Shown here: positions 1-24,642 of the stretch, in pieces
Layout of the letters: each line of letters starts with the position of its first letter
Numbering within the stretch: the first letter of the stretch is position 1
Source of the DNA: a virus
Reading direction: 5' to 3' (one strand)
Length of the DNA stretch: 24,714 nt
IMG/VR virus record: IMGVR_UViG_3300036770_003536
Location: 1 to 24,714 of that record
Made by a program: the position numbers and the translations under genes
Notes under the pieces: model-generated
What the model saw: only the letters and a program-made list of their open reading frames with translations
What the model was told of the DNA's origin: nothing
The model's database searches: none

Positions 1-158
1 AGCTCCATGTGCCGGTCTTCGAGGTTCTGGATGCGGCCACTGCTCGCGGATCGCCCTTCCATACCCTTGAGACGCTCATGCTGTGCACACGCCACCAAGG
101 CCAGCCCAAGGACGGCGATCGCCAGCGGCAGGTCGAATCCACAGAGCCTGGATGGCAT
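1..158 (-). CDS. Membrane/lipoprotein-like protein, 3' end outside window
   Basis: A reading frame opens with ATG at 158 and stays open to the window edge (52 codons). Its ATG overlaps the stop of the desaturase gene as TGATG, so it is probably translationally coupled to it. The N-terminus has one Arg, then a hydrophobic stretch (about residues 10-23) ending in LVAC, which fits a lipobox with Cys24 as the lipidated residue; it could equally be an uncleaved membrane anchor. The part after it is polar and charged. In a phage envelope cassette this layout suits a spanin-like lysis protein (inner-membrane Rz type or lipoprotein Rz1 type), but only the first 52 residues are visible and no family motif was recognised. 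The existence of the gene is well supported by the coupled start; the function is inference. Confidence 0.55.
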   Translation of the reverse strand, partial: MPSRLCGFDLPLAIAVLGLALVACAQHERLKGMEGRSASSGRIQNLEDRHME

Positions 159-685
159 CACGCCTGCCACCTTTCCACTCGCGGGTAGATCCGGAACCAG
201 TCGATCCCCAGCTCCTCGAGCTCGTCCCAGAAGCCGACGAACGACAGCACGGGATTGAGCCAGTCCGTGAGCGTGCAGTAATTCCGATCGAACGGCCGCT
301 TGTGGTGGTCCGCATGCTGCTCGGGAGACTGGAGCACGCCCAGGAGCTGCAGGCCGCGGATCGGCCGTCTGCACTTCTGGTGAGCCCACGCGTGGATCTC
401 GTTTGCCTGGCCGAGCATGAGAAACGTCACGGCCAGAAACGGCGAGCCGAGGAGACCGGCGACGCAGGCCGCCATGCCGGCCGGCAGGAGCGTCGTCCAG
501 TTCCGTTCGAAGTATCCCTTCCGTACGAACGCGAGCTGGTCCGTGTGGTGTTGGATGTTCGGCTGGATCACATGCTCGCCGATGATCGGCCAAGCCGGGT
601 TGCCGTAGCGGTCCTCCCACCAGTGAAAGACACCGGAGAGGAAGTCTGCCAACAGCCACGCGGCGAGGATTTCGATGAACGTCAC
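158..685 (-). CDS. Kua/CarF/TMEM189-like lipid desaturase
   Basis: A 175-aa membrane protein of the lipid desaturase family (CarF, TMEM189/PEDS1, plant Kua/FAD4). Family members introduce a double bond into lipid chains, for example the vinyl-ether bond of plasmalogens, using a histidine-bound di-iron centre. Visible motifs are FHWWED (His21), GEHVIQ (His38), HHTDQ (His46-47), NEIHAWAH (His98, His102) and EQHADHH (His124, 127, 128), followed by the family-typical CTLTDWLNPVL and FWDELE. Hydrophobic stretches lie near residues 4-20 and 66-95. The start chosen is GTG at 685, because AGGAAG precedes it at good spacing and because the frame upstream of it runs into the neighbouring gene; an ATG at 748 is the alternative. 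It sits 7 bases after the 44-aa membrane peptide gene and couples to the lipoprotein-like gene. The family call is firm. The exact substrate in this phage and host is unknown. Confidence 0.85.
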   Translation of the reverse strand: MTFIEILAAWLLADFLSGVFHWWEDRYGNPAWPIIGEHVIQPNIQHHTDQLAFVRKGYFERNWTTLLPAGMAACVAGLLGSPFLAVTFLMLGQANEIHAWAHQKCRRPIRGLQLLGVLQSPEQHADHHKRPFDRNYCTLTDWLNPVLSFVGFWDELEELGIDWFRIYPRVERWQA

Positions 686-692
686 GGTCGGT

Positions 693-827
693 CTACTTCC
701 TGAATGCCTGCATGACGTTGCGAAAGACCGCCGAGGCCATCCACGCAACGGTCAGGCAACAGACGATGAACAGCACGATTGGCCCCACGTAGAACAGAAG
801 CCCGATCCACCACACCCAGGAAATCAC
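693..827 (-). CDS. Small single-span membrane protein (44 aa)
   Basis: The GTG start at 827 overlaps the TGA of the thioredoxin-like gene as GTGA, giving a 44-residue product. A longer reading of the same frame from 968 would lie wholly inside the thioredoxin-like gene and is unlikely. The product begins with a Trp-rich segment (SWVWWIG), continues as one long hydrophobic helix (about residues 4-33, with CC at 23-24), and ends in a short basic tail (FRNVMQAFRK). It has the look of a small phage membrane peptide such as a holin partner, pinholin or regulator of a neighbouring membrane protein. No homologue was recognised. Its position between a membrane-anchored thioredoxin-like protein and a membrane desaturase suggests that it works with one of them or in lysis; this is inference. 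Confidence 0.55.
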   Translation of the reverse strand: MISWVWWIGLLFYVGPIVLFIVCCLTVAWMASAVFRNVMQAFRK

Positions 828-1753
828 GCCGCGGACGCCTTCGGCGAAGGCTTTGGCTCGGGAGCCGTCGAAGACGCGTTCGCGGTCGGGGCGATCTGGT
901 CGAGCGCCGATAGACGGGAGAGCATCGCTTCCATCAGCACGGCTTTCCGGTGCCGCTCCTCCCGCCACTGTGAGATTCTCGGCACCAACACCAACGCGAA
1001 AAATACTGCGATGAGAGTCAGTGCCACCGTCCCCAGGACGATCACCACCGTCGATAGGCCTGCGACTCCCGCCAGCGGTGACGGGGGTGGAATCAGCGGC
1101 AGGCCGTTCGGAAAAACCACCGGCCCAGTCGGGGGCGCGTTGTCATCTTTCGGAGTCGGCGACCACGGAGGGTCGTACCCATGGAACGCGGTTGAGTCAT
1201 GGCTCGAGGCGGATTGCACTCGCGAGACGTATCGACGCACGGCATCCGTGATCTGCCTGGCCAGCTTCTCGGGATCGCCTCCATACCCACCCTGGTAGAC
1301 CACGGTCTTCGGGTCGCCGAACCGCCCATTCCTCGGTGGCTGAACGATCACGGTCGGATAGCTTTTGACGCTGATCCCCTCGAACCGAAACGCCTGGCTC
1401 TTGTCCTCCCGAGGATAGACCTGGTAGTGGGCCCAAGATCGCTTCGGATTGGTTGGGTCGGCAAGCGCAAGCAGATGCTGGCTCGACTTCCAGTCAGCCT
1501 TGAGCTGCTCGCATGGGGCACAGCCCTGCATCGTGAGAACGGAGACGAACCACTTCCCGGAGTCATCCTCGGGGGTCGCCATCGCCTCGACGAACAGATC
1601 GTTCGGGCTCTGCTGGTGACCAGAAACGTGCTGCACGGTGTCGCCGAGGCGAAGCACCTCCGCAACGTCGACATCGGCGGGCTCATCGCCTCGCAGTAAA
1701 CCGGTCGCCGCGAACATCGCGACGACGATTGCCACAATCACAGGCCATCGCAT
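824..1753 (-). CDS. Secreted, C-terminally anchored thioredoxin-like protein
   Basis: A 309-aa protein with an N-terminal signal sequence (hydrophobic residues 4-20). A thioredoxin-like domain spans about residues 50-175. It contains the redox motif CAPC (Cys78 and Cys81) after the strand KWFVSVLT, and a SYPT segment with the expected cis-proline (Pro133). A proline-rich linker follows (about 194-230). A transmembrane helix lies at about 234-258, and a charged, Ala/Pro-rich tail of about 50 residues lies inside. The domain should therefore face the periplasm or outer side. Thioredoxin-fold proteins exchange or reduce disulfides. The ATG at 1753 follows AAGGAG at good spacing. The gene sits 19 bases after a secreted cysteine-rich papain-like protein, so that protein is a plausible client. 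A role in folding the many-Cys tail protein of this phage is also possible, though that protein would be cytoplasmic. The fold is clear; the partner is inference. Confidence 0.75.
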   Translation of the reverse strand: MRWPVIVAIVVAMFAATGLLRGDEPADVDVAEVLRLGDTVQHVSGHQQSPNDLFVEAMATPEDDSGKWFVSVLTMQGCAPCEQLKADWKSSQHLLALADPTNPKRSWAHYQVYPREDKSQAFRFEGISVKSYPTVIVQPPRNGRFGDPKTVVYQGGYGGDPEKLARQITDAVRRYVSRVQSASSHDSTAFHGYDPPWSPTPKDDNAPPTGPVVFPNGLPLIPPPSPLAGVAGLSTVVIVLGTVALTLIAVFFALVLVPRISQWREERHRKAVLMEAMLSRLSALDQIAPTANASSTAPEPKPSPKASAA

Positions 1754-1772
1754 CGTTGCACTCCTTCTGCTG

Positions 1773-2345
1773 TCACCACCACTGCCGATACGCCGGCCGC
1801 TCTGGGTGAGGGGGGTAATCGAGAATCACGCACCACTGGCCGCTCGCGAGGTGGAGCCGCCGAAATGCCGCTTCGTCGTACTCGTCGATGCGGCTGGTCG
1901 AGTTGTTGTTGCAGACGTACCAGCGGCCGGCGGCTGGGTCGTAGCCGGCGAGCGTCTGGAAATGAGCGGTCCCGGCGCCGATGGCACACGGCCGGCCCGT
2001 GGCGGCGGCCCACTTCATCCAGTCCCACGTGGGCGTGCCCGTCACGTTGTAGATGCGGATGCCGCGCCGGCGGGAGTATTCGGCGACACGCGAAGGCCAC
2101 GACCCACCGCGTTCCGCTGGGCCGTACTCGGTGTCCCAGAGGAGCGTCGCGGCTTCGGGGACGTTCTGATCGACGCCGCACATGCCGATTGAGCACTGCA
2201 CGCACGAGCCGTCCGGGTTTCGGAACCACGCCCGCAGCTCCTTCGGCAGGTCCATCGCCAGCCGCTGATCACGCGGCTCGGTCTCGGCGTAGCCGGCACC
2301 GATGCAGATCAAGGCCACCAAGGCGAGGATGCAGGCGCGGATCAT
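1773..2345 (-). CDS. Secreted papain/C39-like cysteine peptidase-like protein
   Basis: A 190-aa protein with a clear Sec signal (about residues 3-20, likely cut after GYA). The mature part carries GSCVQCS (Cys48), which matches the active-site pattern of papain-fold peptidases (GSCWAFS in papain). It also has AHFQTLAGYD (His128), like the C39 pattern GHFVVLVGYD, and CNNNS (Asn146-148) in the place of the third catalytic residue. Extra cysteines at 51, 56, 120 and 145 could form disulfides. Substrates could be a peptidoglycan cross-link (lysis or entry) or a host surface protein. No binding domain is present to choose between them. Its ATG overlaps the upstream stop as ATGA. The next gene encodes a secreted thioredoxin-like protein. 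The fold is inferred from three motifs in the right order, and activity is unproven. No other lytic enzyme was recognised in the window, so this is the best candidate. Confidence 0.6.
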   Translation of the reverse strand: MIRACILALVALICIGAGYAETEPRDQRLAMDLPKELRAWFRNPDGSCVQCSIGMCGVDQNVPEAATLLWDTEYGPAERGGSWPSRVAEYSRRRGIRIYNVTGTPTWDWMKWAAATGRPCAIGAGTAHFQTLAGYDPAAGRWYVCNNNSTSRIDEYDEAAFRRLHLASGQWCVILDYPPHPERPAYRQWW

Positions 2346-2740
2346 GCGGCGGGCTCCTTTCGGACGAGCTCGAGGATCTGTTCCATGGTTCCGCCCGCGA
2401 AGGCGATCACGAGTGCACGGAGGATGGGCTTAGCGAACGGCCAAATGGGGTAGAGGTAGACCGGAACGGCGTAGCCGGCGATGGCGTCAAACAGCCGGCC
2501 GACCAGGTCCATGACGGCGGCCTTCTTCTCCTCGTTCGTCATCCGCTGGACGGTGTCGAGGAACTTCGTCGCGAGCTTCATGAGCGCAGACGACAGCTCG
2601 GAAAACTCCGACCAGGAGAGACCGTCGGAGGCGGCCTGGCGGGCGTTCGCGATGAAGGCCGCGCCCTTGTCGTAGACGTCGCCCGGCGTGAGAAACCCGG
2701 CCTCGGGAAGCGTGACAATCGTCGTGGATGCGTCGGTCAT
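2342..2740 (-). CDS. Hypothetical membrane-associated protein, possibly holin-like
   Basis: A 132-aa protein with an acidic, polar first half that should be helical (about residues 38-75). A hydrophobic C-terminal half follows: a first segment near residues 84-100 containing YAVPVYLYPIWPF, a Lys, then a second segment near 105-116 (LRALVIAFAGG), ending in a charged helix. Two short hydrophobic stretches separated by a polar turn could form a membrane hairpin, as in some holins. No family was recognised. Its start overlaps the 71-aa gene by 4 bases, and its stop overlaps the start of the secreted peptidase-like gene as ATGA. A holin beside a secreted enzyme would make sense of the cassette, but the hydrophobicity is modest and this remains inference. 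Confidence 0.55.
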   Translation of the reverse strand: MTDASTTIVTLPEAGFLTPGDVYDKGAAFIANARQAASDGLSWSEFSELSSALMKLATKFLDTVQRMTNEEKKAAVMDLVGRLFDAIAGYAVPVYLYPIWPFAKPILRALVIAFAGGTMEQILELVRKEPAA

Positions 2741-2952
2741 TTTTCGAGGCCTTTCCTGCGGAGGCGGGATTGCATGATCAGCTCGGTGGCAGACTGCCCC
2801 GGTGTTCGCGACGTGATGCAGCCAATGCCCTCGGATCGCCGCGGTTCGTTGAAGAAAACGTGGTTGTGGCGGTCCGAAGCGGAGGCGATCGGCACCCGGC
2901 CATTCGCCGTGGTCCGGAACACTGTTTCCTCGGCCCGAGAAATGGCAGCCAC
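2737..2952 (-). CDS. Hypothetical 71-aa protein, first gene of the envelope cassette
   Basis: The GTG start at 2952 is preceded by AAGGAG at six bases. The stop overlaps the next start by 4 bases. The product is soluble, basic at the C-terminus (SRLRRKGLEK), and has no membrane segment and no recognised motif. The leader is very short: a candidate -10 (TACACT, 2978-2973) would place the transcript start about 14 bases before the GTG. It is thus probably the first gene of a separate transcript covering everything to the left edge. No function can be assigned. Confidence 0.55.
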   Translation of the reverse strand: MAAISRAEETVFRTTANGRVPIASASDRHNHVFFNEPRRSEGIGCITSRTPGQSATELIMQSRLRRKGLEK

Positions 2953-2970
2953 TCGTCGCTCCTTAGACCT

Positions 2971-3011
2971 TCAGTGTACTGCCGTTCAGGCGCGTCCCTC
3001 GGCGTCGAACG
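2971..3011 (-). promoter_or_regulatory. Candidate promoter element A (41-base repeat)
   Basis: On the minus strand this reads with TACACTG at 2978-2972 and lies directly upstream of the first gene of the left cassette. The 41 bases match 20675-20715 at 37 positions. The right half covers the last codons and stop of the kinase gene. TACACT is a fair -10 hexamer, but no convincing -35 is visible at 16-18 bases. Confidence 0.5.
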
Positions 3012-3870
3012 CGGTCTCGACCTGAGCCTTGAGGTCGTCCAGCGTGCCGTTGTTGTCGATCACGTGGTCGCCATCGCGGATGGCAATTCCCGCCTCACTG
3101 ACATGGGCGTTTGGCTGATCTGTGCCAGGACGCAAGATGTGCCAGATCTCGCCGCCGACCGACCTGAGAAACTCGGCTTCGTTCTCGAAACGAACGTCGG
3201 CCACGGCGATCACACTCGCGCCGCTTCGCTGCAGCGCCATGATCCTGAACCCGAGGATCTTGATCCAGAAGTCGTCGCAGACCATGCGGCGGCCCCATTC
3301 GGTGCCGAGCGTCTGCAGGAGCTGTCGCGGGCTCTTGCCGATCCACGGGATTTCACGGGCCTTCATGGCCGGCCGGCGGAGCCACTTCTCGTGCACGCCG
3401 AGGCAGCATTCGAGCATCGCGTAAATGGGGTCTGCGAGCTGGATCACCGTGGCGCCCGGGATCATTTCGGCGACCGTGGTCTTGCCGCTGCCGGCCCGGC
3501 CGTGGATCCCGATCAGCCGCGTCGGTGCACGGTTTTGCTGCGGCTCATATCCGGGAGGCAGCGTGACGATGTCTCCGCGGTCAACGGACGCAGACCAGAC
3601 CAGCTCACCATCCGGGGCGTCATCGCCTTCGGCGAGAGCTACCACCGTGCCGGGGTCGTGCTCGGCGACGCTTTGTCGGAGCTTGTTGACCTTGTCCTGG
3701 GTCGAACCCCAGCGGGCCTCGAGCTGCGACGCTTTCAGGCCGCCCACCTGGAAGGGCTTGTCGAACACGGCCTCCTTGAGAGGCTCCGCAGGAATGAACG
3801 TGAATTGCTCGTTCTCTTCGACAAACTTCTTGGGCAGGTCGTCAGGCAGTCCGTCGCCGTGCATCGTCAT
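2986..3870 (-). CDS. Deoxynucleotide monophosphate kinase with an N-terminal extension
   Basis: A 294-aa protein whose C-terminal ~180 residues look like phage dNMP kinases (T4 gene 1 type), which phosphorylate dNMPs to dNDPs to feed replication. Visible are the P-loop GRAGSGKTT (residues 124-132), ADPIYAML, the family-typical SPRQLLQTLGTEWGRR (180-195), VADVRFENEAE and a C-terminal VIDNNGTLDDL. The first ~115 residues are an acidic region without a recognised fold (about residues 15-110). T4's enzyme starts close to its P-loop, so this is an added domain. Start ATG at 3870 follows GGAG; a second ATG two codons on (3864) is possible. A nucleotide-metabolism gene placed after the tail genes and before the envelope cassette is out of the usual replication cluster. 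The kinase family call is strong. Confidence 0.82.
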   Translation of the reverse strand: MTMHGDGLPDDLPKKFVEENEQFTFIPAEPLKEAVFDKPFQVGGLKASQLEARWGSTQDKVNKLRQSVAEHDPGTVVALAEGDDAPDGELVWSASVDRGDIVTLPPGYEPQQNRAPTRLIGIHGRAGSGKTTVAEMIPGATVIQLADPIYAMLECCLGVHEKWLRRPAMKAREIPWIGKSPRQLLQTLGTEWGRRMVCDDFWIKILGFRIMALQRSGASVIAVADVRFENEAEFLRSVGGEIWHILRPGTDQPNAHVSEAGIAIRDGDHVIDNNGTLDDLKAQVETAFDAEGRA

Positions 3871-3928
3871 GGCTCCAGGGGAATGAGCGGCGGCATCCTC
3901 ACCTGGTCTGCACCGGCGTCAATACCAA

Positions 3929-4300
3929 TTAGGCGGGTTCTGGAGGAGCGACGATGACGGCAACCTTCCCCATGAAAGCGGTCCGCACAACTCCGCCGGC
4001 GGACTCGTACCGAAGGAACCAGTACCAGGGTTTCCTGGAATCGAGGGCGGCCGTGATCGTCTTTGGAATCGTGACCTCGATCATGGTGTGGACCGTCTCC
4101 GGAGGTGTCGGAGAGGGCTCTGGGTCGACCACCAAGGTGGGCTCAAACTCAACCTCGGGAGCCACGAGCTGGCTGTTGTAGATGCCGGACGTGACCGTGT
4201 AGCCGGTGAGGTCGAGCTCGACACGCACGTCGAACACCAGGTCGTCGCCCTGAACGAGCGTGATCGCCTTGTCTTCAGGTCGCTGGGTGACCGCTGCCAT
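3929..4300 (-). CDS. Small tail/baseplate-type protein (BppU N-terminal-like)
   Basis: A 123-aa protein starting at ATG 4300, which follows AGGAG at seven bases. The longer reading from 4405 would add unlikely sequence overlapping the previous gene, so it was not used. The opening ITLVQGDDLVFDVRV, the following LTGYTVTSGIY and the late WYWFLRYESAGGVVRTAFMG fit the small beta-sandwich found at the N-terminus of BppU-like baseplate proteins, which anchor receptor-binding parts. A Pro/Glu-rich loop sits mid-protein. It is the last gene of the tail cluster and has its own candidate -10 (TATACT) at 4328-4323, which may give extra expression. The fold assignment rests on pattern likeness only. Confidence 0.55.
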   Translation of the reverse strand: MAAVTQRPEDKAITLVQGDDLVFDVRVELDLTGYTVTSGIYNSQLVAPEVEFEPTLVVDPEPSPTPPETVHTMIEVTIPKTITAALDSRKPWYWFLRYESAGGVVRTAFMGKVAVIVAPPEPA

Positions 4301-4742
4301 GCGTTTGCTCCTCGTGAACGTCAGTATACCTGGGCAGGCGTGCAGCCCCGGCGGCCCGACGCGCGAGCGAGCATGCCGTTTTGACGACACCGATCGCCGC
4401 GGCATCGCTCCACGGAATCAGGAGCCGCCGCTTGCGATGCTCCCGCCGCATGACCTTGAGGATCTTCTCCAGAGCCTCGGGCGACTCACACCAATCCGGC
4501 CCGCGGGCATCCATCTCGGCCGCCATCGGGCCACACTCGCAGTCCTCGGTGGCGTCGATACCGATCCACGACAGCATCCGCTTGGTGAAGTGGCCTGGTC
4601 CTGGCGGGCCGGCGGGTTTCTTAGCCTTCGGGTCGTATGGTTTCGGCGGCGGCTTGCAGTTGCGAAACGTCGGCAGCCTGCGGGCGACATGGCCGCACGT
4701 CGTGCAGGTGAGCGTCACAGGATCGTAGCTGCATTGCGTCAT
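4275..4742 (-). CDS. Hypothetical protein with N-terminal zinc-ribbon-like CxxC
   Basis: A 155-aa protein. The start is ATG 4742, which overlaps the stop of the large tail protein as ATGA; the longer frame from 4838 lies inside that gene. Cys-containing motifs are TCTTCGHVARRLP near residue 15, a further NCKPPPKP, and ECECGPM mid-protein, suggesting a small metal-binding domain. A proline/lysine-rich linker (PPPKPYDPKAKKPAGPPGPG) follows the first motif. The C-terminus is basic (MRREHRKRR) and overlaps the next gene by 26 bases; that overlap also contains a candidate promoter. Comparable CxxC-bearing small proteins are common near tail genes of phages, but no function is known to me. Confidence 0.6.
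   Translation of the reverse strand: MTQCSYDPVTLTCTTCGHVARRLPTFRNCKPPPKPYDPKAKKPAGPPGPGHFTKRMLSWIGIDATEDCECGPMAAEMDARGPDWCESPEALEKILKVMRREHRKRRLLIPWSDAAAIGVVKTACSLARRAAGAARLPRYTDVHEEQTHGSGHPAT
4319..4330 (-). promoter_or_regulatory. Candidate -10 element C (TATACTG)
   Basis: The minus strand reads GGTATACTGACG here, with TATACT at 4328-4323, about 22 bases before the ATG at 4300 and its AGGAG. It shares TAYACTG with three other sites in front of minus-strand genes. It lies inside the 3' end of the upstream gene. No clear -35 is visible. Confidence 0.4.
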
Positions 4743-6793
4743 GCGATCACCATCGATCCGAAGCCCGTGAAGGCATAGGCGCTGATCCGGTGCGGATACG
4801 TGCCGGCGGCTGGGCCACACATAGGGGAATCCTGGCACCGAGATGCGCAGCCGTTTTCACCGTAGAACAAGCCGTAGCTACCACCACCACCGAAAACCGT
4901 CATGCACTTCTTGTTGCAATGGTTGCACTCGTGAGTGTCTTCGATGGATCCGTTCCCCGCGGAATCGAACTCCAATACCTCCCGGAACCCCCACGTCGCT
5001 CGAGGTGGCCCTGGGTTTTGTGTGGCACACGGCACAACCTCCACGAAAAGGTAGTCGCCATTCCATGAAGTGCCGCCCTCTTGCAGGGTGAGTACGTGAT
5101 CGCCTTCCGGTGGCGCTTGGTAGTGTGTCCAAGCCATCTCGATCGCAGTCGGTTCATCCACGCTCCAATACGACTGAATGTGAGCGATCAGACCAGTTGG
5201 ATACGTGTAGGAAACGGTCACCTCTTCGGGTGGAGCCGCGTCACCTTGGCAGCATGGCAGGCATGAGTACGGGCCGGCCCATTGGTTGTTTTCGTCGTAG
5301 GTGCCACCTTCCGACACGGATGCTGTGGTGCCGCTCGGGTGTGAGGCCTCGAACTCGATTGGATCGTCGACACCCACGAGCGTCTCGGCCGTCATGAGAA
5401 CGTCGCAGGTCATCGAATGAAGCGGGGTGGGGCTTCCGACTGGCGACTCAGTGATGAGCACCACGTAGGCGGGCTTTTCTGGACCTCGCCAGACAACTTG
5501 CAGCGCTCCGCGGGTGGCGTGGGCGGCATTGCCCGTGCAAAAACGGTGCTCGTAGACGCAAGCCGGCCGGCTCGCCTGGCAGTCGTCCATAGGAACCGAC
5601 GCTGTCTCTCGGCAGAAATGAGCCAGGTACGGGTAAAGCGGCCAGCCTTCCGAAACAGGGTAGTAGTCGGTGGCGTTGTCATTGCTGTCGACCTGGCCCT
5701 CGCGAGCACAGGGCCGCGCCCCCTTTCGGAGAACAAACGTCCTGCCGTCCAGGGCTGTGTCGCAGCAGCTCCGCACGTAGTCGGAACCGTTGTAATCGTC
5801 GCCGCCGTCGTCGAGAGCAATCCCCGTCAGGCTCCCAAACGTTGGACTCTCGGGATCATCGTCGATCGAGATCGTGAAGGTCGCGCCCGTGCCTCCGCCA
5901 CCGTCCACGGTTGCGGTCACGTCCGCCAGTAGGGCGGGCTCGGTTGGGTCCTCCTCGTAGTAAACGCCGCCATCGTCGACAACGATGATGTCGGCCACGC
6001 CGGTGTCTTTGAAATACTCGCCCGGGGAGTCGATCACGTATCCCGTGATTTCTCCGCTGCCGCCAACGGATGTGACGCGGCCGAATGCCGAATAGGACTC
6101 CTGCCCATCGGTGACCACGAAGGCGATCGGGTCATCGACAACGTAGCCGGTGCCGGCCGTGTCGATGCTCAGAGTGTCTACGCCCCAGATGTCACGGCCA
6201 TCGAGGTCCGTGCCGGCGGACAGGTTCACCGACAGGGCGCCGCCAGTGCCGATCGCTCCCGACAAGTCGGCCACGATCGTCGGCGCGGCCCGGACCGTGC
6301 GAACCCGCAGATACGCGGGCGACACCTCCATCACCTCTGGGCCGTAGTAGAGGTAGAACTGCTGATTGTCCGTGTAAGACCCCTCGTCGCCGCCGTCGAC
6401 GACGGCCGCCGATGCGATCCGCCAGTAGGGCCAGTCGCAATCGCCAGCCTCCTCGGCAAGCGTGAAAGTAACGGTCGAGTTGCTGTCTCCGGTGATCGTC
6501 GGTTCCACCCTGCCGATCGCCGCATACCCTCCGCCACCCGCCGTAAGGATCGGTGTGTCGACCGGGCCCGGGGTGGAGCCAGGTTCCGGGGCGTTCACGT
6601 AGCCGGCGGCGCCTTCGCCCTGGCACGAGCTGAACGCGAGCGGGATTCTGCTGACAGCCGGGAAGGCCGTCGCGAAGCCGCCGAGCGTGACCGTGAGGGT
6701 ATCGGGCAGACAACGCGACCGGGTGACAACCTGCGTCCCGGAGAACGGGTTTGTCACCAGAACCTTGCCGGCGCTGGTCACTGGCCTTCTCAC
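4739..6793 (-). CDS. Large cysteine-rich tail-tip protein (probable virion component)
   Basis: A 684-aa protein. The GTG at 6793 is preferred because it overlaps the previous stop as GTGA and is preceded by GGAGGG; the ATG at 6841 would intrude 52 bases into the previous gene. The N-terminal half has Gly/Asp-rich beta repeats of the type GTGYxxxDPI and GxVTSVGGSGxITGYVIDSPG, ending in a GGGGTGATFTISIDDD stretch. The C-terminal half (from about residue 340) is unusually cysteine-rich: RSCCDT, YSCLPCCQGD, ECNHCNKKC and NGCASRCQDSPMCG. Such repeats occur in phage tail fibres and tip proteins. Its place downstream of the tape measure and two smaller tail genes supports a tail tip or receptor-binding role. 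The cysteines could bind metal or form disulfides after release. No enzyme motif was recognised. Confidence 0.65.
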   Translation of the reverse strand: MRRPVTSAGKVLVTNPFSGTQVVTRSRCLPDTLTVTLGGFATAFPAVSRIPLAFSSCQGEGAAGYVNAPEPGSTPGPVDTPILTAGGGGYAAIGRVEPTITGDSNSTVTFTLAEEAGDCDWPYWRIASAAVVDGGDEGSYTDNQQFYLYYGPEVMEVSPAYLRVRTVRAAPTIVADLSGAIGTGGALSVNLSAGTDLDGRDIWGVDTLSIDTAGTGYVVDDPIAFVVTDGQESYSAFGRVTSVGGSGEITGYVIDSPGEYFKDTGVADIIVVDDGGVYYEEDPTEPALLADVTATVDGGGGTGATFTISIDDDPESPTFGSLTGIALDDGGDDYNGSDYVRSCCDTALDGRTFVLRKGARPCAREGQVDSNDNATDYYPVSEGWPLYPYLAHFCRETASVPMDDCQASRPACVYEHRFCTGNAAHATRGALQVVWRGPEKPAYVVLITESPVGSPTPLHSMTCDVLMTAETLVGVDDPIEFEASHPSGTTASVSEGGTYDENNQWAGPYSCLPCCQGDAAPPEEVTVSYTYPTGLIAHIQSYWSVDEPTAIEMAWTHYQAPPEGDHVLTLQEGGTSWNGDYLFVEVVPCATQNPGPPRATWGFREVLEFDSAGNGSIEDTHECNHCNKKCMTVFGGGGSYGLFYGENGCASRCQDSPMCGPAAGTYPHRISAYAFTGFGSMVIA

Positions 6794-14126: not shown

Positions 14127-15947
14127 TCAGTAGTAAACCGTTATGCGGACTAAAGCGCTGCCACCATTACCCCCCGCACCGCTGGTGAATCCGTTCAGGC
14201 AGCCTCCGCCACCTCCACCACCTCCGCCCGGCGCCCCACCGTTTCCACCGTTGCCTCCAGCACCGGCGTTGTTCCCACCACCGCCGCTGCCACCCATGCC
14301 CAGGAAACCGCGAGTGCCACCACTGCTTCCGTTACCGCCACCAGCAGTTCCGCCGCTCGCGGCAGTTCCGCTAGCAAGGCCGATCGGAATCGAAGTTGCG
14401 CCGCCTGCGTACTGGTTATTTGATGAGTCGACGCCGCCGCCGCCGCCACCCCCGACGGACGTGAAGGTTGTTGTTGAGCCGGCGCCGGCGCCGGCCGCAT
14501 CAGATCGACCATTGCCCCCCCCAGCAGGCGACCACTGACTGGCCCAAATGTTATTGCCGGCTGTAGAAGATGTCGCTGCCGCACCAGCTGATCCGCCCGT
14601 TGCGCCGAATGACATTGCAACGATCTTCGAGTTGATAGTCACTGACGCGCTCGCGCCGTTTGATCCAGCGTTCCCGTTTGTGTCGTCGGTTGAGACTCCA
14701 GCACCACCAGCTCCTCCAGATGGAGCAGCGATGGAACACGAAAGCGATTCAAGCTGTGACACTAGTAGCGAAGTTTCGCTCCACCCGCCCGCGCCACCGC
14801 CCGCGCCGCCGCATCGCGCCGACGAGGCAGCACCCCTGCGACCACTACCACCGCCTCCACCTGCCCCGACGCATAAGATTTTTACGGCTTTCGCCGTCGC
14901 TGGAATTGACCATGTGTAACTACCACCCGAGCCGGTCGCGCTATCAGGCTTGCTGGTTGCCGTGAAGTCGAACGCTTCCGACTTCGTGACCGTGACCGCG
15001 CCAGTCGAACCGTCGACGCTCGTGACTGGCGGAGCCGCGTAGGTCTGGTCGCCCCGAAGAAAAGTCGAGGAGTTCGCCGTGCCGCTTCCGAGTCTCGCGG
15101 TCGCCATCGTGCCGGAGGTGATGTCACTCGCCGAATGAGCGTGGCCCGTGGCTGACTTGCCATCGAGCGCCGACTGCAATCCCGTGACGGTCGAGATCGC
15201 TTGCTCGCCGGTGTGCGTCGTGCGGTCTCGGAGCTGCGAGTCTGATGCGTTCGCCGTCGCGCCAGTCGCGATGCCGTCCAGCTTCGTTTTCGCCGAGCTT
15301 GCGGCCCACCAGGCCGCGATGGCCTGGAATGCCCGGACGGCCGTCCACGCCCGGCGGGTGGTCGAAACTCCGGCCTCAGCTTCCTCCTGGCTGATCGTTT
15401 CGGCAGTCCACTCCCTCGCGTTTGTCACGCTGGCGTCGTTCGATGCGAGCTTGCCGTCGAGGGCCGTTTGCAGGCCGCTCACGTCCGCGATTGCATGGCC
15501 GTGCCCGGTGGCGCTCTTCCCGTCCAGGGCCGCCTGGAGCCCCGTCACGGTGCTGATAGCCTGCTCGCCGGTGTGGTTGCCACGCTGGATCGCGTGGGCC
15601 TGGGCGGCGTTTGCCTTCGTGGTAGCGTCCGTAGCTGCTGCTGCGATAGCGGCAGACTGAGCCGCGTTTGCTTTCGTCGTCGCGTCGGTGGCCGCGGCGG
15701 TCGCGACGGCCGTGTCTGCCGTGGCCTGAGCGGTCGAGACGGGCTTGTTCACGTCCGACGTGTTGTCGACGTTCCCGAGTCCAACCATCGACTTCGTGAC
15801 GCCCGCGACCGTGCCGGTGAATGTCGGATTGGCGATCGGGGCTTTGAGATCGACGGCGCCCTCGATCAGCGTGAGGTTCGTGTCGTGCTCGGCGGCCGTG
15901 AGGGGCCGGCCGACCACCAATCGCTTGACGAGGCCTGCGATGCTCAT
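14127..15947 (-). CDS. Tail fibre with repeats and a polyglycine tip
   Basis: A 606-aa protein. The opening (residues ~1-60) ends in TFTGTVAGVTKSMVGLGNVD and NTSDVNKPVS, the repeat usual in phage tail fibres. It is followed by a helical region with a doubled ATDATTKANAAQ unit and two copies of HTGEQAISTVTGLQ-ALDGKSATGH. A beta stretch (TYAAPPVTSVDGSTGAVTV) leads into AKAVKILCVGAGGGGG. From there to the end (about residues 355-606) the chain is almost wholly Gly/Ser/Ala/Asn with few cysteines, ending GGSALVRITVYY. Long Gly-rich tips in fibres such as T-even gp38-like adhesins fold as packed polyglycine helices with variable receptor-binding loops. The start overlaps the upstream stop as ATGA. 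Such a gene is normally downstream of the tape measure; here it lies between head and tail modules. Confidence 0.82.
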   Translation of the reverse strand: MSIAGLVKRLVVGRPLTAAEHDTNLTLIEGAVDLKAPIANPTFTGTVAGVTKSMVGLGNVDNTSDVNKPVSTAQATADTAVATAAATDATTKANAAQSAAIAAAATDATTKANAAQAHAIQRGNHTGEQAISTVTGLQAALDGKSATGHGHAIADVSGLQTALDGKLASNDASVTNAREWTAETISQEEAEAGVSTTRRAWTAVRAFQAIAAWWAASSAKTKLDGIATGATANASDSQLRDRTTHTGEQAISTVTGLQSALDGKSATGHAHSASDITSGTMATARLGSGTANSSTFLRGDQTYAAPPVTSVDGSTGAVTVTKSEAFDFTATSKPDSATGSGGSYTWSIPATAKAVKILCVGAGGGGGSGRRGAASSARCGGAGGGAGGWSETSLLVSQLESLSCSIAAPSGGAGGAGVSTDDTNGNAGSNGASASVTINSKIVAMSFGATGGSAGAAATSSTAGNNIWASQWSPAGGGNGRSDAAGAGAGSTTTFTSVGGGGGGGVDSSNNQYAGGATSIPIGLASGTAASGGTAGGGNGSSGGTRGFLGMGGSGGGGNNAGAGGNGGNGGAPGGGGGGGGGCLNGFTSGAGGNGGSALVRITVYY

Positions 15948-16366
15948 GCCGCGAAAACTCCTGGTTCAAACACACCGTCAACGAACACCGCAGTCGGCAG
16001 GGCCCGACGGATCGTGTGGACTCGTCGCAGGTTTTCGCTGCGGCTCGCCCAGGCCCACTCCTTGTCTCGCCCCTTCGGGAGCGTCACCTCGAACACCCGC
16101 TCCTCCTCACCCGCCATGTAAGTGATCCGGTCGCGTCGCTTTGGCTCGTTTGGATAGTCCGCGGTTGAAACGAAGAAATCCTTTGTCTCGATCCGGATGA
16201 TTTGCTGTGCCGCATCGATCATGTCCCACTTGCCGACCACGAGCGTGGCCTTGATCTCGTAGGAAACCTCCGGCTCGTCGACCGGCCAGTACAGGGCGTC
16301 GATCGACATGTGGAGCCGGCGAGTCTCCTCGAACATCGCCTCGCCTTCCGCGATCATGTCGCCCAC
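15944..16366 (-). CDS. Head-tail joining (stopper-like) protein
   Basis: A 140-aa protein. The start chosen is GTG at 16366, because GGAGG lies six bases upstream; ATG at 16357 is an alternative and the frame from 16429 would pass through a hairpin. The segment DFFVSTADYPNEPKRRDRIT followed by GEEERVFEVTLP resembles small head-closure proteins, which have a beta-barrel with an exposed loop. It is located after the decoration gene and before the tail fibre, the usual region for head-tail connectors. Sequence likeness is loose, so the exact role (stopper, adaptor) is uncertain. Its stop overlaps the fibre start by 4 bases. Confidence 0.5.
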   Translation of the reverse strand: MGDMIAEGEAMFEETRRLHMSIDALYWPVDEPEVSYEIKATLVVGKWDMIDAAQQIIRIETKDFFVSTADYPNEPKRRDRITYMAGEEERVFEVTLPKGRDKEWAWASRSENLRRVHTIRRALPTAVFVDGVFEPGVFAA

Positions 16367-16441: not shown

Positions 16442-16813
16442 TTAGGCAGGCTCACCCTGCGGGCCTTGCGGGCCGACAGCGTTGAGCTTGATGAGCACGT
16501 CGGTCGCGGCGGTCGTCGTCGCCTCGACGGTGATGCCTGCGAACGAGTCGCCATCACCCTCGACGTGCGTCACGTGGGCCTCCGACTGATCGAGATAGAC
16601 CATCGTGCCAAGGGCCCAGTCGGTGCTGGCGCCGGTCTTCTTGGCGGCCCTGAAAAGCCCCTCGACGTCGAGAGAACCCTTCGTGTTGGCCGGGATCGGA
16701 CGAGTCGCGACGCCGGTCATTTGGGTCCCGATCGGCACCATCGTCTTGACGGCAACGTCGGTGCCCGGCGTGTAGGGAATCGAGTTGCCAGGAGAAACGT
16801 ACGCAGCAGACAT
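16442..16813 (-). CDS. Capsid decoration protein (DUF2190-like) with a collagen-like end
   Basis: A 123-aa protein directly downstream of the capsid gene. The sequence SPGNSIPYTPGTDVAVKTMVP and the later TGASTDWALGTMVYLD with DGDSFAGITVEATT follow the small beta-rich DUF2190 pattern, a family commonly encoded next to the major capsid protein and thought to decorate the capsid. The C-terminus adds GPQGPQGEPA, a short Gly-X-Y collagen-like run, a fibre-like tip not always present in the family. The ribosome site is weak (GGTGA eight bases before ATG 16813). Hairpins stand on both sides of the gene (16861-16891 and 16390-16426), which may give it its own transcript level, as a protein needed in hundreds of copies would want. 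Confidence 0.68.
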   Translation of the reverse strand: MSAAYVSPGNSIPYTPGTDVAVKTMVPIGTQMTGVATRPIPANTKGSLDVEGLFRAAKKTGASTDWALGTMVYLDQSEAHVTHVEGDGDSFAGITVEATTTAATDVLIKLNAVGPQGPQGEPA

Positions 16814-16860
16814 TTGAGATCACCAACCTTTCCGAGAATGTGAATTGAGAGAACCGATTG

Positions 16861-16891
16861 CCTGGGGGCCGGCACGTCGCCAGCCCCCAGG
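16861..16891. terminator. Perfect hairpin between capsid and decoration genes
   Basis: A 13-pair stem (one wobble on the minus strand) with a 5-base loop: CCTGGGGGCCGGC, ACGTC, GCCAGCCCCCAGG on the plus strand. On the plus strand CCC and TTTTT (16895-16899) follow. On the minus strand, along the operon, no T-run follows. It could be a partial terminator, a stability element or a terminator for plus-strand transcripts. Confidence 0.55.
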
Positions 16892-16914
16892 CCCTTTTTC
16901 ATCACGCCGATCGA

Positions 16915-18861
16915 TCAGGCAGTCGCCATGCGGTAGACGCCCTTCGACTCGCCCTTGGCGACGCCGAAGTCGAAGAACCCTCGCATCTGGATGGCCAGCT
17001 TCGAGAAGTCCGCGTCCGCACTCTCCACCGTCGGCTGCTTGATGCCGTCGAGGAAAGCCACGACCATCGCCGGGAGGTCGCGGGGGTCGGCCCCGAGCCA
17101 CCAGGTCGTCGCGCTCGTCAGGTAAGACGAGACCACGAGCTGATACCGGCCCGCGAACGGGTTGCGGTTGCCCTCGGTCACGTCCTTGCCCGTGATGAGC
17201 AGGTCGCTGCCCATGATCTTGGCGGCCTTGATCTCGAGCTCCGGAGGCAGGACGAGCAGCTTCGGCATGATGCCGAGCGGCTGGTTGTCCGGCCCCTTGA
17301 GCTTCCGCCAGTCCGTGACGGCCAGCTCGAGCGACGTCAACGAGAAAGCGTTGTCGGCGTGGGCCGTACGCTTCGCGTAGTAGGTCGCGTTGTTCGCCTG
17401 GTACTCCGTCCAGAACTCGGTGTTGAGCTTGAGCCCAGCACCGCGGCCGAGGTGGCGAGGAATGTCGGACAACGCGTCCAGGTCATCGTTGATGATGTCC
17501 TGGCGAGTGATGCTCGACAGCCGACCGTAGGTCTTCGCCTTCACGGTCCGCTTCTCGTCGCCAACGTCAGCCGACGCCAGCTCCCCGTCGTTCCCGACTT
17601 CCTCGTACTCGAAGCCGCCGACCACGCGAACGCCGGTGACTTCCTTGAAGTCGCTGACGTTTCGCTCGCGGGCGATGGCGTTCCAGCCCGGCTCGACCGA
17701 GAAGAACCCGTCGAGGAGGTGCTTGCCGTACACACCACTCAGCACGTCGCTGATGTCGTGCGTCGCGGAGCCCTGGATGTAGGCAAACCGCAGCACCTCT
17801 CGGAGGTTTTCCTTCCGAACGCGGCTGCTGCCGGTGTACCCGTTGGCCCGGGCCGCCTGGACGAGGCACTCCTGAAGGCCGAAGCCTTCGCGGTTCATCT
17901 TGGCAGCCGCCTCGAGCGTGCGCTCGCTGAACTGCTTCTCGATGTTCCGCAGCCCGCCCCGGAGGCACAAAGCCGCCTGGACAGTGTCGCCGTCGGACTG
18001 GTCGTCGCCGCGGACGATGCCGGCAGGAGCCTGACCAGGAGCGTCAGGGCGACCGCCCCGAATCTTCCCGAGCACCTCCTTCCGCACCTCGGCGATGACC
18101 TCGGCCTTCACCTCATCGCGGAGGCTGGCACGGAGCTGGGCGATGGCCTCAGCCGACACCGAGCCTTCCTCGACGAGCGAGGCGCCGTCACCACCGGTCT
18201 TGGCGTTGACGCCAGGAAGGATGGAATCTTTCCCCGCGGCGACCTTCGCCGGGGCTTCCGCCGAGACATCAGTCTCGTCGGGCGTCTGGTTGGCGTTCTT
18301 CGCCATCGGGTCATCTCCATTCGCTTCCGCAGCGATCGCGGCCGACGTCTTGCTGTCGGCACCAAACAAAACAATCGAGACCTCGCGGAGCGTGGACGCA
18401 CGCACCACGTCGACCGGGCCTTCGAAGGTCCGGCCGTTGACTTTGACCTTGGCTCCCTGCTCGACACGCTCGATGCGATTCACATCCGCACCGATCGACG
18501 CCTGGAACTTCCACCCGCGGCGAGCGAGGCGGAGAGCCTTCTCGACTTCCTCGCCTTCACCGATCACATCGCCGGCGACCACGAGTACCTTGCCGTCGTT
18601 CTTGACCTCGCTCGCCTGGCCGACGGCGTGATCCATGTCGTATTGGTGGCCGAGCATCACGGCGATGAGGTCGCTCGTGTCCATGCCGGCGAGATCCACG
18701 ACGAGCGGCACACGGCTCCACCACTGGCGGATCGAGGCCCCCGTGTAGCCGACGAGCGAGAAACGAGCGTTGCCGTCCGGCTGACCGTCGGCACGGATCT
18801 CTGGCGAGGAAATCGTGGCCTCGCCGATGATCCGAAGATTGCGTTCGCGATGTGCAGGCAT
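16915..18861 (-). CDS. Prohead protease-scaffold-major capsid protein fusion
   Basis: A 648-aa protein in three parts. Residues ~1-180 are a prohead protease-like domain: MLGHQYDMDHAVGQ (His72/His78), WKFQASIGAD (Ser122) and REVSIVLFGAD, in the usual His-Ser order of these serine peptidases. Residues ~185-285 are polar and partly helical (SAEAIAQLRASLRDEVKAEV), as expected of a scaffold or delta region. From about residue 300 on is the capsid part, with RQDIINDDLDALSDIPRHLG, PKLLVLPPELEIKAAKI, NPFAGRYQLVVSSYL and VAFLDGIKQPTVESADADF, which fit HK97-fold proteins of the Mu gpT-like type. The protease should cut the fusion during head assembly. The start is 5 bases after the portal stop. An internal ribosome site at 18306 may make a 463-aa protease-free form. 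Confidence 0.88.
   Translation of the reverse strand: MPAHRERNLRIIGEATISSPEIRADGQPDGNARFSLVGYTGASIRQWWSRVPLVVDLAGMDTSDLIAVMLGHQYDMDHAVGQASEVKNDGKVLVVAGDVIGEGEEVEKALRLARRGWKFQASIGADVNRIERVEQGAKVKVNGRTFEGPVDVVRASTLREVSIVLFGADSKTSAAIAAEANGDDPMAKNANQTPDETDVSAEAPAKVAAGKDSILPGVNAKTGGDGASLVEEGSVSAEAIAQLRASLRDEVKAEVIAEVRKEVLGKIRGGRPDAPGQAPAGIVRGDDQSDGDTVQAALCLRGGLRNIEKQFSERTLEAAAKMNREGFGLQECLVQAARANGYTGSSRVRKENLREVLRFAYIQGSATHDISDVLSGVYGKHLLDGFFSVEPGWNAIARERNVSDFKEVTGVRVVGGFEYEEVGNDGELASADVGDEKRTVKAKTYGRLSSITRQDIINDDLDALSDIPRHLGRGAGLKLNTEFWTEYQANNATYYAKRTAHADNAFSLTSLELAVTDWRKLKGPDNQPLGIMPKLLVLPPELEIKAAKIMGSDLLITGKDVTEGNRNPFAGRYQLVVSSYLTSATTWWLGADPRDLPAMVVAFLDGIKQPTVESADADFSKLAIQMRGFFDFGVAKGESKGVYRMATA
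18304..18318 (-). promoter_or_regulatory. Candidate internal ribosome site in the capsid fusion
   Basis: GGAG (18318-18315) lies eight bases before an in-frame ATG at 18306 (Met186, MAKNANQ), exactly at the border of the protease and scaffold parts. Use of this start would yield scaffold-capsid protein without protease. Confidence 0.45.
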
Positions 18862-23368: not shown

Positions 23369-23395
23369 TCGGCAGGGTGGAACCTTCGCGATCAC
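23365..23395. other. Hairpin across two convergent stop codons
   Basis: GTGATCG (23365-23371) pairs with CGATCAC (23389-23395). Inside, AGGGT can pair with ACCTT around GGA. The outer arms contain the stop codons of both the plus-strand gene and the methyltransferase. There is no T-run on either strand, so terminator activity is doubtful. Confidence 0.35.
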
Positions 23396-24642
23396 TGATG
23401 CCCAGCTCCGGAGGCTTCAAGGATGGCCCCGGATGCTGGGCTGGCCTCTGATAGGTAGGCCGTCTTTCCTGTGAGTTGTTCCCACCTGCGGACGATCACG
23501 TCGCAGTACCGCGGGTCGAGCTCCAGCCCGCAGCACCGCCGGCCGAGCTGTTCCGCGGCGATGAGCGTGGTGCCGCTGCCCAGGAAGCTGTCGAACACCA
23601 GCCCGCCCGGGCGACTGCTGTTGCCGATCAGGTAGGCGATTAGCGCCACCGGCTTCATCGTGGGGTGGTCGGCGTTGGATGTCGGCCGGTCGAACTCGAG
23701 CACCGTGGTCTGCGAGCGGTCCGAATACCACTCGTGGGCGGCCCCATCCTTCCACCCGTAGAGGCATGGCTCGTGCTTCCACTGGTAATCCTGCCGTCCG
23801 AGCACCAGGGCGTTCTTCTTCCAGATCAGGCACTGCCGCACCCGCTGGCCGCAGTCTTTGACGGCGCCGCGGAAGTTGAGGCCCTCGCTGTCGGCGTGCC
23901 AGATGTAGAACGCACCTCCCGGCTTGAGGGCTGCGAACGCCTGCTCGTAGGCCGCGCGGAGGAACGCACGGAAATCGGCGTCCGGCATGCTGTCGTTCGC
24001 GATCGTGAGGGCCTCGTCGGTCCCGCCCACGTAGGCGACGTTGTACGGAGGGTCGGTCAGCCAGATGTCGGCCAGCTCGACGTCCATCACGCGCTCGACG
24101 TCTTCGGCTCGCGTCGAGTCGCCGCAAAGCAACCGATGCTCGCCGAGGATCCACAGGTCGCCCGGCTTCGTGACCGGGTCCGCCGGCGGCTCCGGCACGT
24201 CGTCCTCGACGATCCCGGTCGGCTCGCCCTGGTAGAGGCCGGCCGCTGCCGCCACATCCGCGAGCATCTGCTGGACCGCCTCGCTCCCGGTGTCGAGATC
24301 ACGCAGGATGGCATCGAGCTTCACCGCGTCCGCCTCCGCCATCGCCGAGAGCGGGTCGAGCGTCGCGAGGATCTTGTCGGCCTCGGCCTGGTTCACGTCG
24401 AGCACCAGGACCGGCACCGGCTTGTCGCCGAGGGTCTCCACGCGGAGGTGACCGTCGATCAGCTCGAGCGTGCCGTCGTCGAGCTCCCGGGCCAGGACCG
24501 CGTCAGCGATGCCCACCTCGGCGAACACGCCGCGGAGCGCGTCGGCCTGGGCCTGCGGATGGGTCCGCCAATTCCTCGGGTTTGGGCGAAGATCGGAGGC
24601 CGGAACGCGGCGAAGCTCTCGGATTCGGTCCCTGATAAGCAT
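23392..24642 (-). CDS. ParB-domain/DNA methyltransferase fusion
   Basis: A 416-aa protein. Residues ~12-95 are a ParB/Srx-like domain with ASDLRPNPRNWRTHPQ and LIDGHLRVE (DGHLR at 63-67). From about 160 on is an amino-methyltransferase with DPPY (197-200) before FDSFLGSGTT (350-359), the beta-class order, and HPTMKPVALIAYLI in between. Such enzymes methylate adenine N6 or cytosine N4 and often protect phage DNA from host restriction or change gene control. ParB-methyltransferase fusions are common in phages. The ATG at 24642 has no clear ribosome site, and the frame stays open to the window edge, so the start could lie further upstream. No restriction enzyme gene is seen beside it. Confidence 0.88.
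   Translation of the reverse strand: MLIRDRIRELRRVPASDLRPNPRNWRTHPQAQADALRGVFAEVGIADAVLARELDDGTLELIDGHLRVETLGDKPVPVLVLDVNQAEADKILATLDPLSAMAEADAVKLDAILRDLDTGSEAVQQMLADVAAAAGLYQGEPTGIVEDDVPEPPADPVTKPGDLWILGEHRLLCGDSTRAEDVERVMDVELADIWLTDPPYNVAYVGGTDEALTIANDSMPDADFRAFLRAAYEQAFAALKPGGAFYIWHADSEGLNFRGAVKDCGQRVRQCLIWKKNALVLGRQDYQWKHEPCLYGWKDGAAHEWYSDRSQTTVLEFDRPTSNADHPTMKPVALIAYLIGNSSRPGGLVFDSFLGSGTTLIAAEQLGRRCCGLELDPRYCDVIVRRWEQLTGKTAYLSEASPASGAILEASGAGHQ

Follow-up and report, generated by a model that had tools for sequence, protein, structure and literature searches.

The first 2,952 bases of the virus record IMGVR_UViG_3300036770_003536 (IMG/VR; 24,714 bases, hereafter the window) encode seven tightly packed genes, all on the minus strand (2952-1), among them a candidate secreted papain-fold cysteine protease, an exported thioredoxin-fold protein and a membrane lipid desaturase. 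Comparison with related phages indicated that two separable modules meet at this locus: a protease-thioredoxin pair, which belongs to a set of apparently interchangeable exported-protease modules in a family of phages, and the desaturase, which is predicted to be functional. We tentatively propose that the exported protease module attacks the protein-rich, cysteine-rich envelope of the host and that the desaturase is an optional lipid-modifying add-on. A near-identical contig, L002 (45,145 bases), extends the window by about 20 kb; genes beyond the window were called with a home-made caller, and the relatives are mostly metagenomic fragments.

A papain-fold protease paired with an exported thioredoxin-fold protein

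The initial annotation had described a secreted papain-like protein and a membrane-anchored thioredoxin-like protein, and structural modelling agreed with both descriptions. The AlphaFold2 (AF2) model of the papain-like protein, with a predicted local distance difference test (pLDDT) score of 87, matched staphopain (E 4e-04) and C39-like peptidase domains (E 1.2e-03) in Foldseek at a TM-score of about 0.5, and Cys48, His128 and Asn147/148 were invariant across 24 homologs. The phage protein thus shares its fold and the order Cys-His-Asn with these peptidases, and secretion with staphopain, but it has no Pfam match, shows no propeptide and is paired with a thioredoxin-fold gene. Searching PDB sequences with the profile of the papain-like family returned short designed-protein matches, which were judged spurious. 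In the thioredoxin-like protein, the thioredoxin domain was modelled mostly at a pLDDT above 90 and contains the CAPC motif and an invariant proline, P133, at the cis-Pro position; its Foldseek matches in the PDB were DsbD-gamma and thioredoxins (best E 7.7e-05), and hydropathy showed a signal at the N terminus and a membrane span at the C terminus. Both proteins very probably act outside the cytoplasmic membrane.

The thioredoxin-like gene directly follows the papain-like protease gene at 37 of 41 loci, and a CxxC motif is present in 37 of the 41 thioredoxin-like proteins; judged by this linkage, the two form a conserved mobile pair. Neither protein, nor the desaturase, found a match in PHROGs. 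In a distant planctomycete version (L217:347-2363), genes for a transmembrane/coiled-coil protein, a papain-like protein, a 39-amino-acid transmembrane peptide, a thioredoxin-like protein without CxxC and a 136-amino-acid membrane protein stand together.

Phage family, host and protease slot

The phage is temperate, since L002 carries genes for a tyrosine integrase and for a LexA-type protein. The papain-like gene occurred in 3 of 392 sampled Planctomycetota genomes, versus 0 of 299 and 0 of 195 in the other sampled genome sets, counts that are too weak by themselves as a host signal; the host assignment therefore rests on an integrated prophage. A 6.96-Mb Planctomycetota chromosome carries the genes terL, portal, capsid, cement, papain, thioredoxin and c3, in order, through to the tape measure. 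Since the window shares its structural family with this chromosome-integrated phage, the window most likely derives from a temperate siphovirus that has a planctomycete as its host.

In many relatives the protease module occupies a slot that, in the window, lies between the cement gene and the next gene (15944-16366). When loci were selected by the capsid protein alone, 80 were obtained, and 33 contigs spanned the region from capsid to tail. Exactly one exported protease was encoded by 22 of these 33 contigs (papain-like in 8, trypsin-like c18 in 9 and trypsin-like P340 in 5), and none of the 33 had two of the three, where independence predicts about 5 (relatedness uncorrected). On this distribution, the phage family draws on three interchangeable exported-protease modules, of which the papain pair is one. 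One relative (L252:5930-7327) encodes a fusion of Trypsin_2 (E 2.5e-11) and Thioredoxin_2 (E 2e-06, CSPC) that is exported and has a C-terminal membrane anchor. The trypsin-like domain and membrane anchor of this fusion and of the c18 proteins recall DegS/HtrA-like proteases, from which they differ in being phage-encoded, in lacking an HtrA equivalog match (11.5 bits for TIGR02037, against 416), and in being paired with a desaturase or fused to thioredoxin.

Possible proteolysis of the host wall

Earlier work describes the planctomycete wall as a disulfide-bonded protein sacculus (PMC2754498); YTV proteins rich in cysteine form part of the wall (PMC8567305, PMC10632474), and in Planctopirus limnophila the majority of the genes for peptidoglycan synthesis are non-essential (PMC10632474). 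Pfam recognised no peptidoglycan hydrolase in the cassette or among 58 further proteins encoded on the 45-kb contig, and none in the proteins scanned from two phages that carry the desaturase or from the structural half of one more phage. Because the wall is protein-rich and no hydrolase was recognised, we favour a protease and a disulfide reductase acting on the wall. It is conceivable, though short of an even chance, that the protease and the thioredoxin-like protein serve lysis; the wider proposition, that planctomycete phages lyse by proteolysis, using a protease together with a disulfide reductase or a desaturase instead of or besides an endolysin, is more doubtful.

Under this model, expression of the pair would coincide with that of the late genes; disulfide cross-links of the protein-rich, cysteine-rich wall would be opened by the thioredoxin domain and the wall proteins cut by the protease, so that the cell would burst or the envelope be loosened for release. 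As an optional partner, the desaturase would work from the cytoplasmic face, where its active site would lie, draw on an electron donor of the host and introduce a double bond into a chain of a host phospholipid, thereby altering the membrane; that it acts in the same process as the pair we regard as rather doubtful. The cluster resembles a canonical lysis cassette (holin, endolysin and spanins) in its compactness and in containing an exported hydrolase, a small transmembrane peptide and a membrane coiled-coil protein. It differs in having a protease instead of a muralytic enzyme, with no recognised peptidoglycan hydrolase or holin, and in its usual position among the head-tail genes of relatives.

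Several observations weigh against a proteolytic attack on the wall. Planctomycete peptidoglycan exists and is lysozyme-sensitive (PMC4432640), and an unrecognised hydrolase may therefore be what lyses the cell; not all endolysins are visible to Pfam, which misses divergent ones. Two proteins without a Pfam match, L272:8740-9402 and L252:5313-5933, look by eye like permuted NlpC/P60 proteins; their genes adjoin papain-like or trypsin-thioredoxin genes. In most relatives the protease module lies among the head-tail genes with no obvious holin adjacent, and in 11 of the 33 family contigs the surveyed locus is without any of the three proteases. CxxC is missing from 4 of the 41 thioredoxin-like proteins and from the distant L217 version, so reduction is not needed everywhere. 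Finally, most protease-bearing records lack the desaturase, which was found at none of the 80 capsid-survey loci.

A different use of the same genes would be superinfection exclusion or envelope remodelling in lysogeny, in which the exported protease would clip receptors or the proteins of incoming phages, and a membrane altered by the desaturase would keep other phages from injecting. The temperate character of the phage, the shifting positions of the modules, reminiscent of morons, a membrane anchoring suited to standing guard and the recruitment of three unrelated proteases to one role all speak for this explanation. However, the genes lie within the structural order and in the same direction, and no promoter-like site of their own was found near them in the window, for which reason late rather than prophage-state expression would fit, and we consider exclusion unlikely.

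A lipid desaturase as a second module

The desaturase gene had initially been read as Kua/CarF/TMEM189-like. Its product matched PF10520 with E 1.7e-38 and 132.9 bits (cut-off 26.4) and retains all eight family histidines (H21, H46, H47, H98, H102, H124, H127 and H128), and the essential Asp (D100) corresponds to D25; these nine residues are invariant in 19 phage homologs. Two clear hydrophobic stretches were seen by hydropathy (the family topology has four helices), and a search of solved structures by sequence returned only chance polybromo matches. In close pairs, dN/dS ranged from 0.05 to 0.31 (0.31 against the L043 desaturase), indicating purifying selection. The profile match and the intact histidine pattern uphold the identification as a lipid desaturase, and we are confident that the enzyme is catalytically competent. 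Relatives are encoded by at least 133 viral contigs, which range from temperate siphoviruses up to a 390-kb contig.

The arrangement of the seven genes is not a product of chance, because it recurs unchanged in both L002 and the relative L003. The full set is confined to the window/L002 and L003, which are close relatives; in L043, the 132-amino-acid, papain-like and thioredoxin-like genes stand together and the desaturase lies several genes further on, and elsewhere the pair and the desaturase are mostly apart. The desaturase was found in only 3 of 47 records carrying the papain-like gene, and the papain-like gene in 0 of 24 other desaturase-bearing viral records, indicating that two separable modules have met here; on the former count, a seven-gene cassette fixed across phages was rejected. 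In another phage lineage, the desaturase directly follows the trypsin-like c18 exported protease at 17 of 18 loci, and c103-type papain-like genes also adjoin it (L099, L100, L144 and L145). The joint envelope programme initially suggested for the cluster therefore survives in altered form: its genes are envelope-directed and include a real lipid desaturase, but as a fixed cassette it does not extend beyond close relatives. One prophage of the trypsin-like/desaturase type (L240/L241, prophage record G452) additionally carries a gene for a sulfhydryl oxidase of the Erv1/Alr family (Pfam E 1.2e-07).

The low co-occurrence would also be expected if two unrelated cargoes had come to lie side by side by chance, the pair having a role of its own and the desaturase serving membrane fluidity or stress. 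Consistent with this, the window and L003 share 92% identity in the protease, 76% in the thioredoxin-like protein and 61% in the desaturase, and the two desaturases fall in different sub-clades, which suggests that one desaturase has been exchanged for another at this position; moreover, in large phages many of the desaturases occur on their own. Nevertheless, the desaturase repeatedly adjoins exported proteases of different kinds, and that of L003 is flanked by the 44-amino-acid peptide and the coiled-coil gene in the same order. We give chance juxtaposition a low probability.

Phage plasmalogen synthesis, in which the desaturase would act as a CarF/PEDS1 enzyme and make vinyl-ether lipids in the host, is very improbable. 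The phage enzyme shares with CarF/PEDS1 (TMEM189) the Pfam family, the eight-histidine pattern and the Asp beside the first histidine, but mouse PEDS1 H131 and F118 are replaced by K56 and N43, and neither PEDS1 residue occurs in any aligned phage sequence. H131 is the PEDS1-specific histidine, whose role has been described (PMC9131029, PMC8960569), and plant and Alphaproteobacteria homologs without it did not complement carF (PMC9131029); the mouse F118A variant retained 5.9% of activity (PMC8960569). The score against the NCBIfam CarF equivalog model NF045946 was 80.1 bits versus a cut-off of 500. In a tree of 64 sequences, with no FAD4 or CarF sequences among them, the phage desaturases fell in a 'PNxxHH' group divided from PEDS1-type planctomycete proteins by a branch of length 0.85 with 100/100 support; most lay in phage-dominated clades, and an Erythrobacter phage protein grouped with Sphingomonadales chromosomal proteins. 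By residues, equivalog score and tree, a plasmalogen synthase identity was rejected, and the earlier family label holds at the level of Pfam only: as far as its sequence indicates, the gene product is intact and belongs to an uncharacterised PF10520 subfamily, distinct from the plasmalogen enzyme. Like plant FAD4, the delta-3-trans 16:1 PG desaturase, it combines PF10520 and the eight histidines with the absence of the PEDS1-specific histidine, but it has Asn43 in place of a Phe that is conserved in PEDS1 and FAD4 (PMC8960569), and it would work in a bacterial host without thylakoids.

Planctomycetota genomes (L171, L174-L177, L179-L186 and L188-L191) were found to encode PF10520 proteins in which the PEDS1-type motif is complete, including the F118 and H131 equivalents (for example, PFREHHVDPREITRHDF), and some planctomycetes may therefore make plasmalogens aerobically. 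According to a review, bacterial CarF is known mainly in myxobacteria, Leptospira and Alphaproteobacteria (PMC9131029).

The near neighbourhood of the two genes here might suggest that the thioredoxin-like protein assists the desaturase as a redox helper, in the way that peroxiredoxin Q (PRXQ) enhances plant FAD4 activity (PMC12456178), but this has next to no probability, given that the thioredoxin domain is outside the membrane by predicted topology, that CarF histidines are cytoplasmic (PMC9131029) and that the thioredoxin-like gene nearly always occurs without a desaturase.

Gene arrangement and small genes

The genes of the cluster are listed in Table 1. Their compactness, noted at the outset, was evident from the successive intergenic distances of -4, -4, +19, -4, +7 and -4 bp, that is, 4-bp overlaps or 7-19 bp gaps. 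The single promoter that had been placed ahead of them was not recovered: a scan of window positions 1-4900 for sigma-70-like promoters found 0 sites, with 0.8 expected by chance.

Table 1. Positions of the cluster genes and of the capsid genes in the window
Feature	Position	Strand	Evidence or relatives
71-amino-acid small protein (g71), first of cluster	2737..2952	-	L003 homolog, 39% over 46 amino acids
132-amino-acid protein	2342..2740	-	Directly upstream of papain-like gene in L002, L003 and L043
Candidate secreted papain-fold cysteine protease	1773..2345	-	Cys48, His128, Asn147/148; AF2; Foldseek
Exported, membrane-anchored thioredoxin-fold protein	824..1753	-	CAPC; N-terminal signal, C-terminal transmembrane span; AF2; Foldseek; hydropathy
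44-amino-acid single-span membrane peptide	693..827	-	Hydropathy 2.6; 4-bp overlap with thioredoxin-like gene
PF10520 membrane lipid desaturase, 'PNxxHH' subfamily, 175 amino acids, GTG start	158..685	-	Pfam, alignment, tree
Start of 73-amino-acid membrane-anchored coiled-coil-like protein	1..161	-	Leaves window; complete in L002 6525-6746
Capsid cement and major capsid genes, marking planctomycete siphovirus family	16442..18861	-	

The 132-amino-acid protein had been considered a possible holin; it is weakly hydrophobic, with a peak hydropathy of 1.31 and no clear membrane span, and a family search gave nothing better than E 0.02, so that this suggestion finds no backing. A close search matched 3 viral contigs, and distant members lie near papain-like/desaturase genes in L144, L145 and L148. 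The 44-amino-acid peptide proved to be a membrane peptide as annotated, by its hydropathy; it has a close homolog in L003, similar small transmembrane peptides come after the thioredoxin-like gene at 11 of 41 loci, and it could serve as the holin. For the coiled-coil gene, a lipoprotein or spanin-like start had been proposed. A lipobox-like LVAC is present in the window, but its cysteine is missing in the L003 homolog, indicating that a lipoprotein is not a conserved feature of this gene.

Three further genes deserve mention. Upstream of the terminase gene, window positions 23392-24642 encode a protein that matches both DNA methyltransferase and ParB-like families. The predicted deoxynucleoside monophosphate kinase at 2986-3870 matches its family from residue 111 only and thus has a long N-terminal extension. 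Two genes past the coiled-coil gene, L002:7167-7469 encodes a small phage protein with a HEITH zinc-protease-like motif and no Pfam match.

Implications

A literature search found no description of this widespread phage-borne desaturase subfamily distinct from the plasmalogen enzyme, and nothing on point for TMEM189 in phage, PF10520 in viruses or planctomycete phage endolysins. The mutually exclusive exported proteases offer a direct handle on how phages breach a wall that is thought to be stiffened partly by cysteine-rich proteins. If the proposed attack on the envelope is correct, it would constitute a protein-wall route to lysis and show which wall component carries the load, and it would provide new enzymes that open protein-rich walls.

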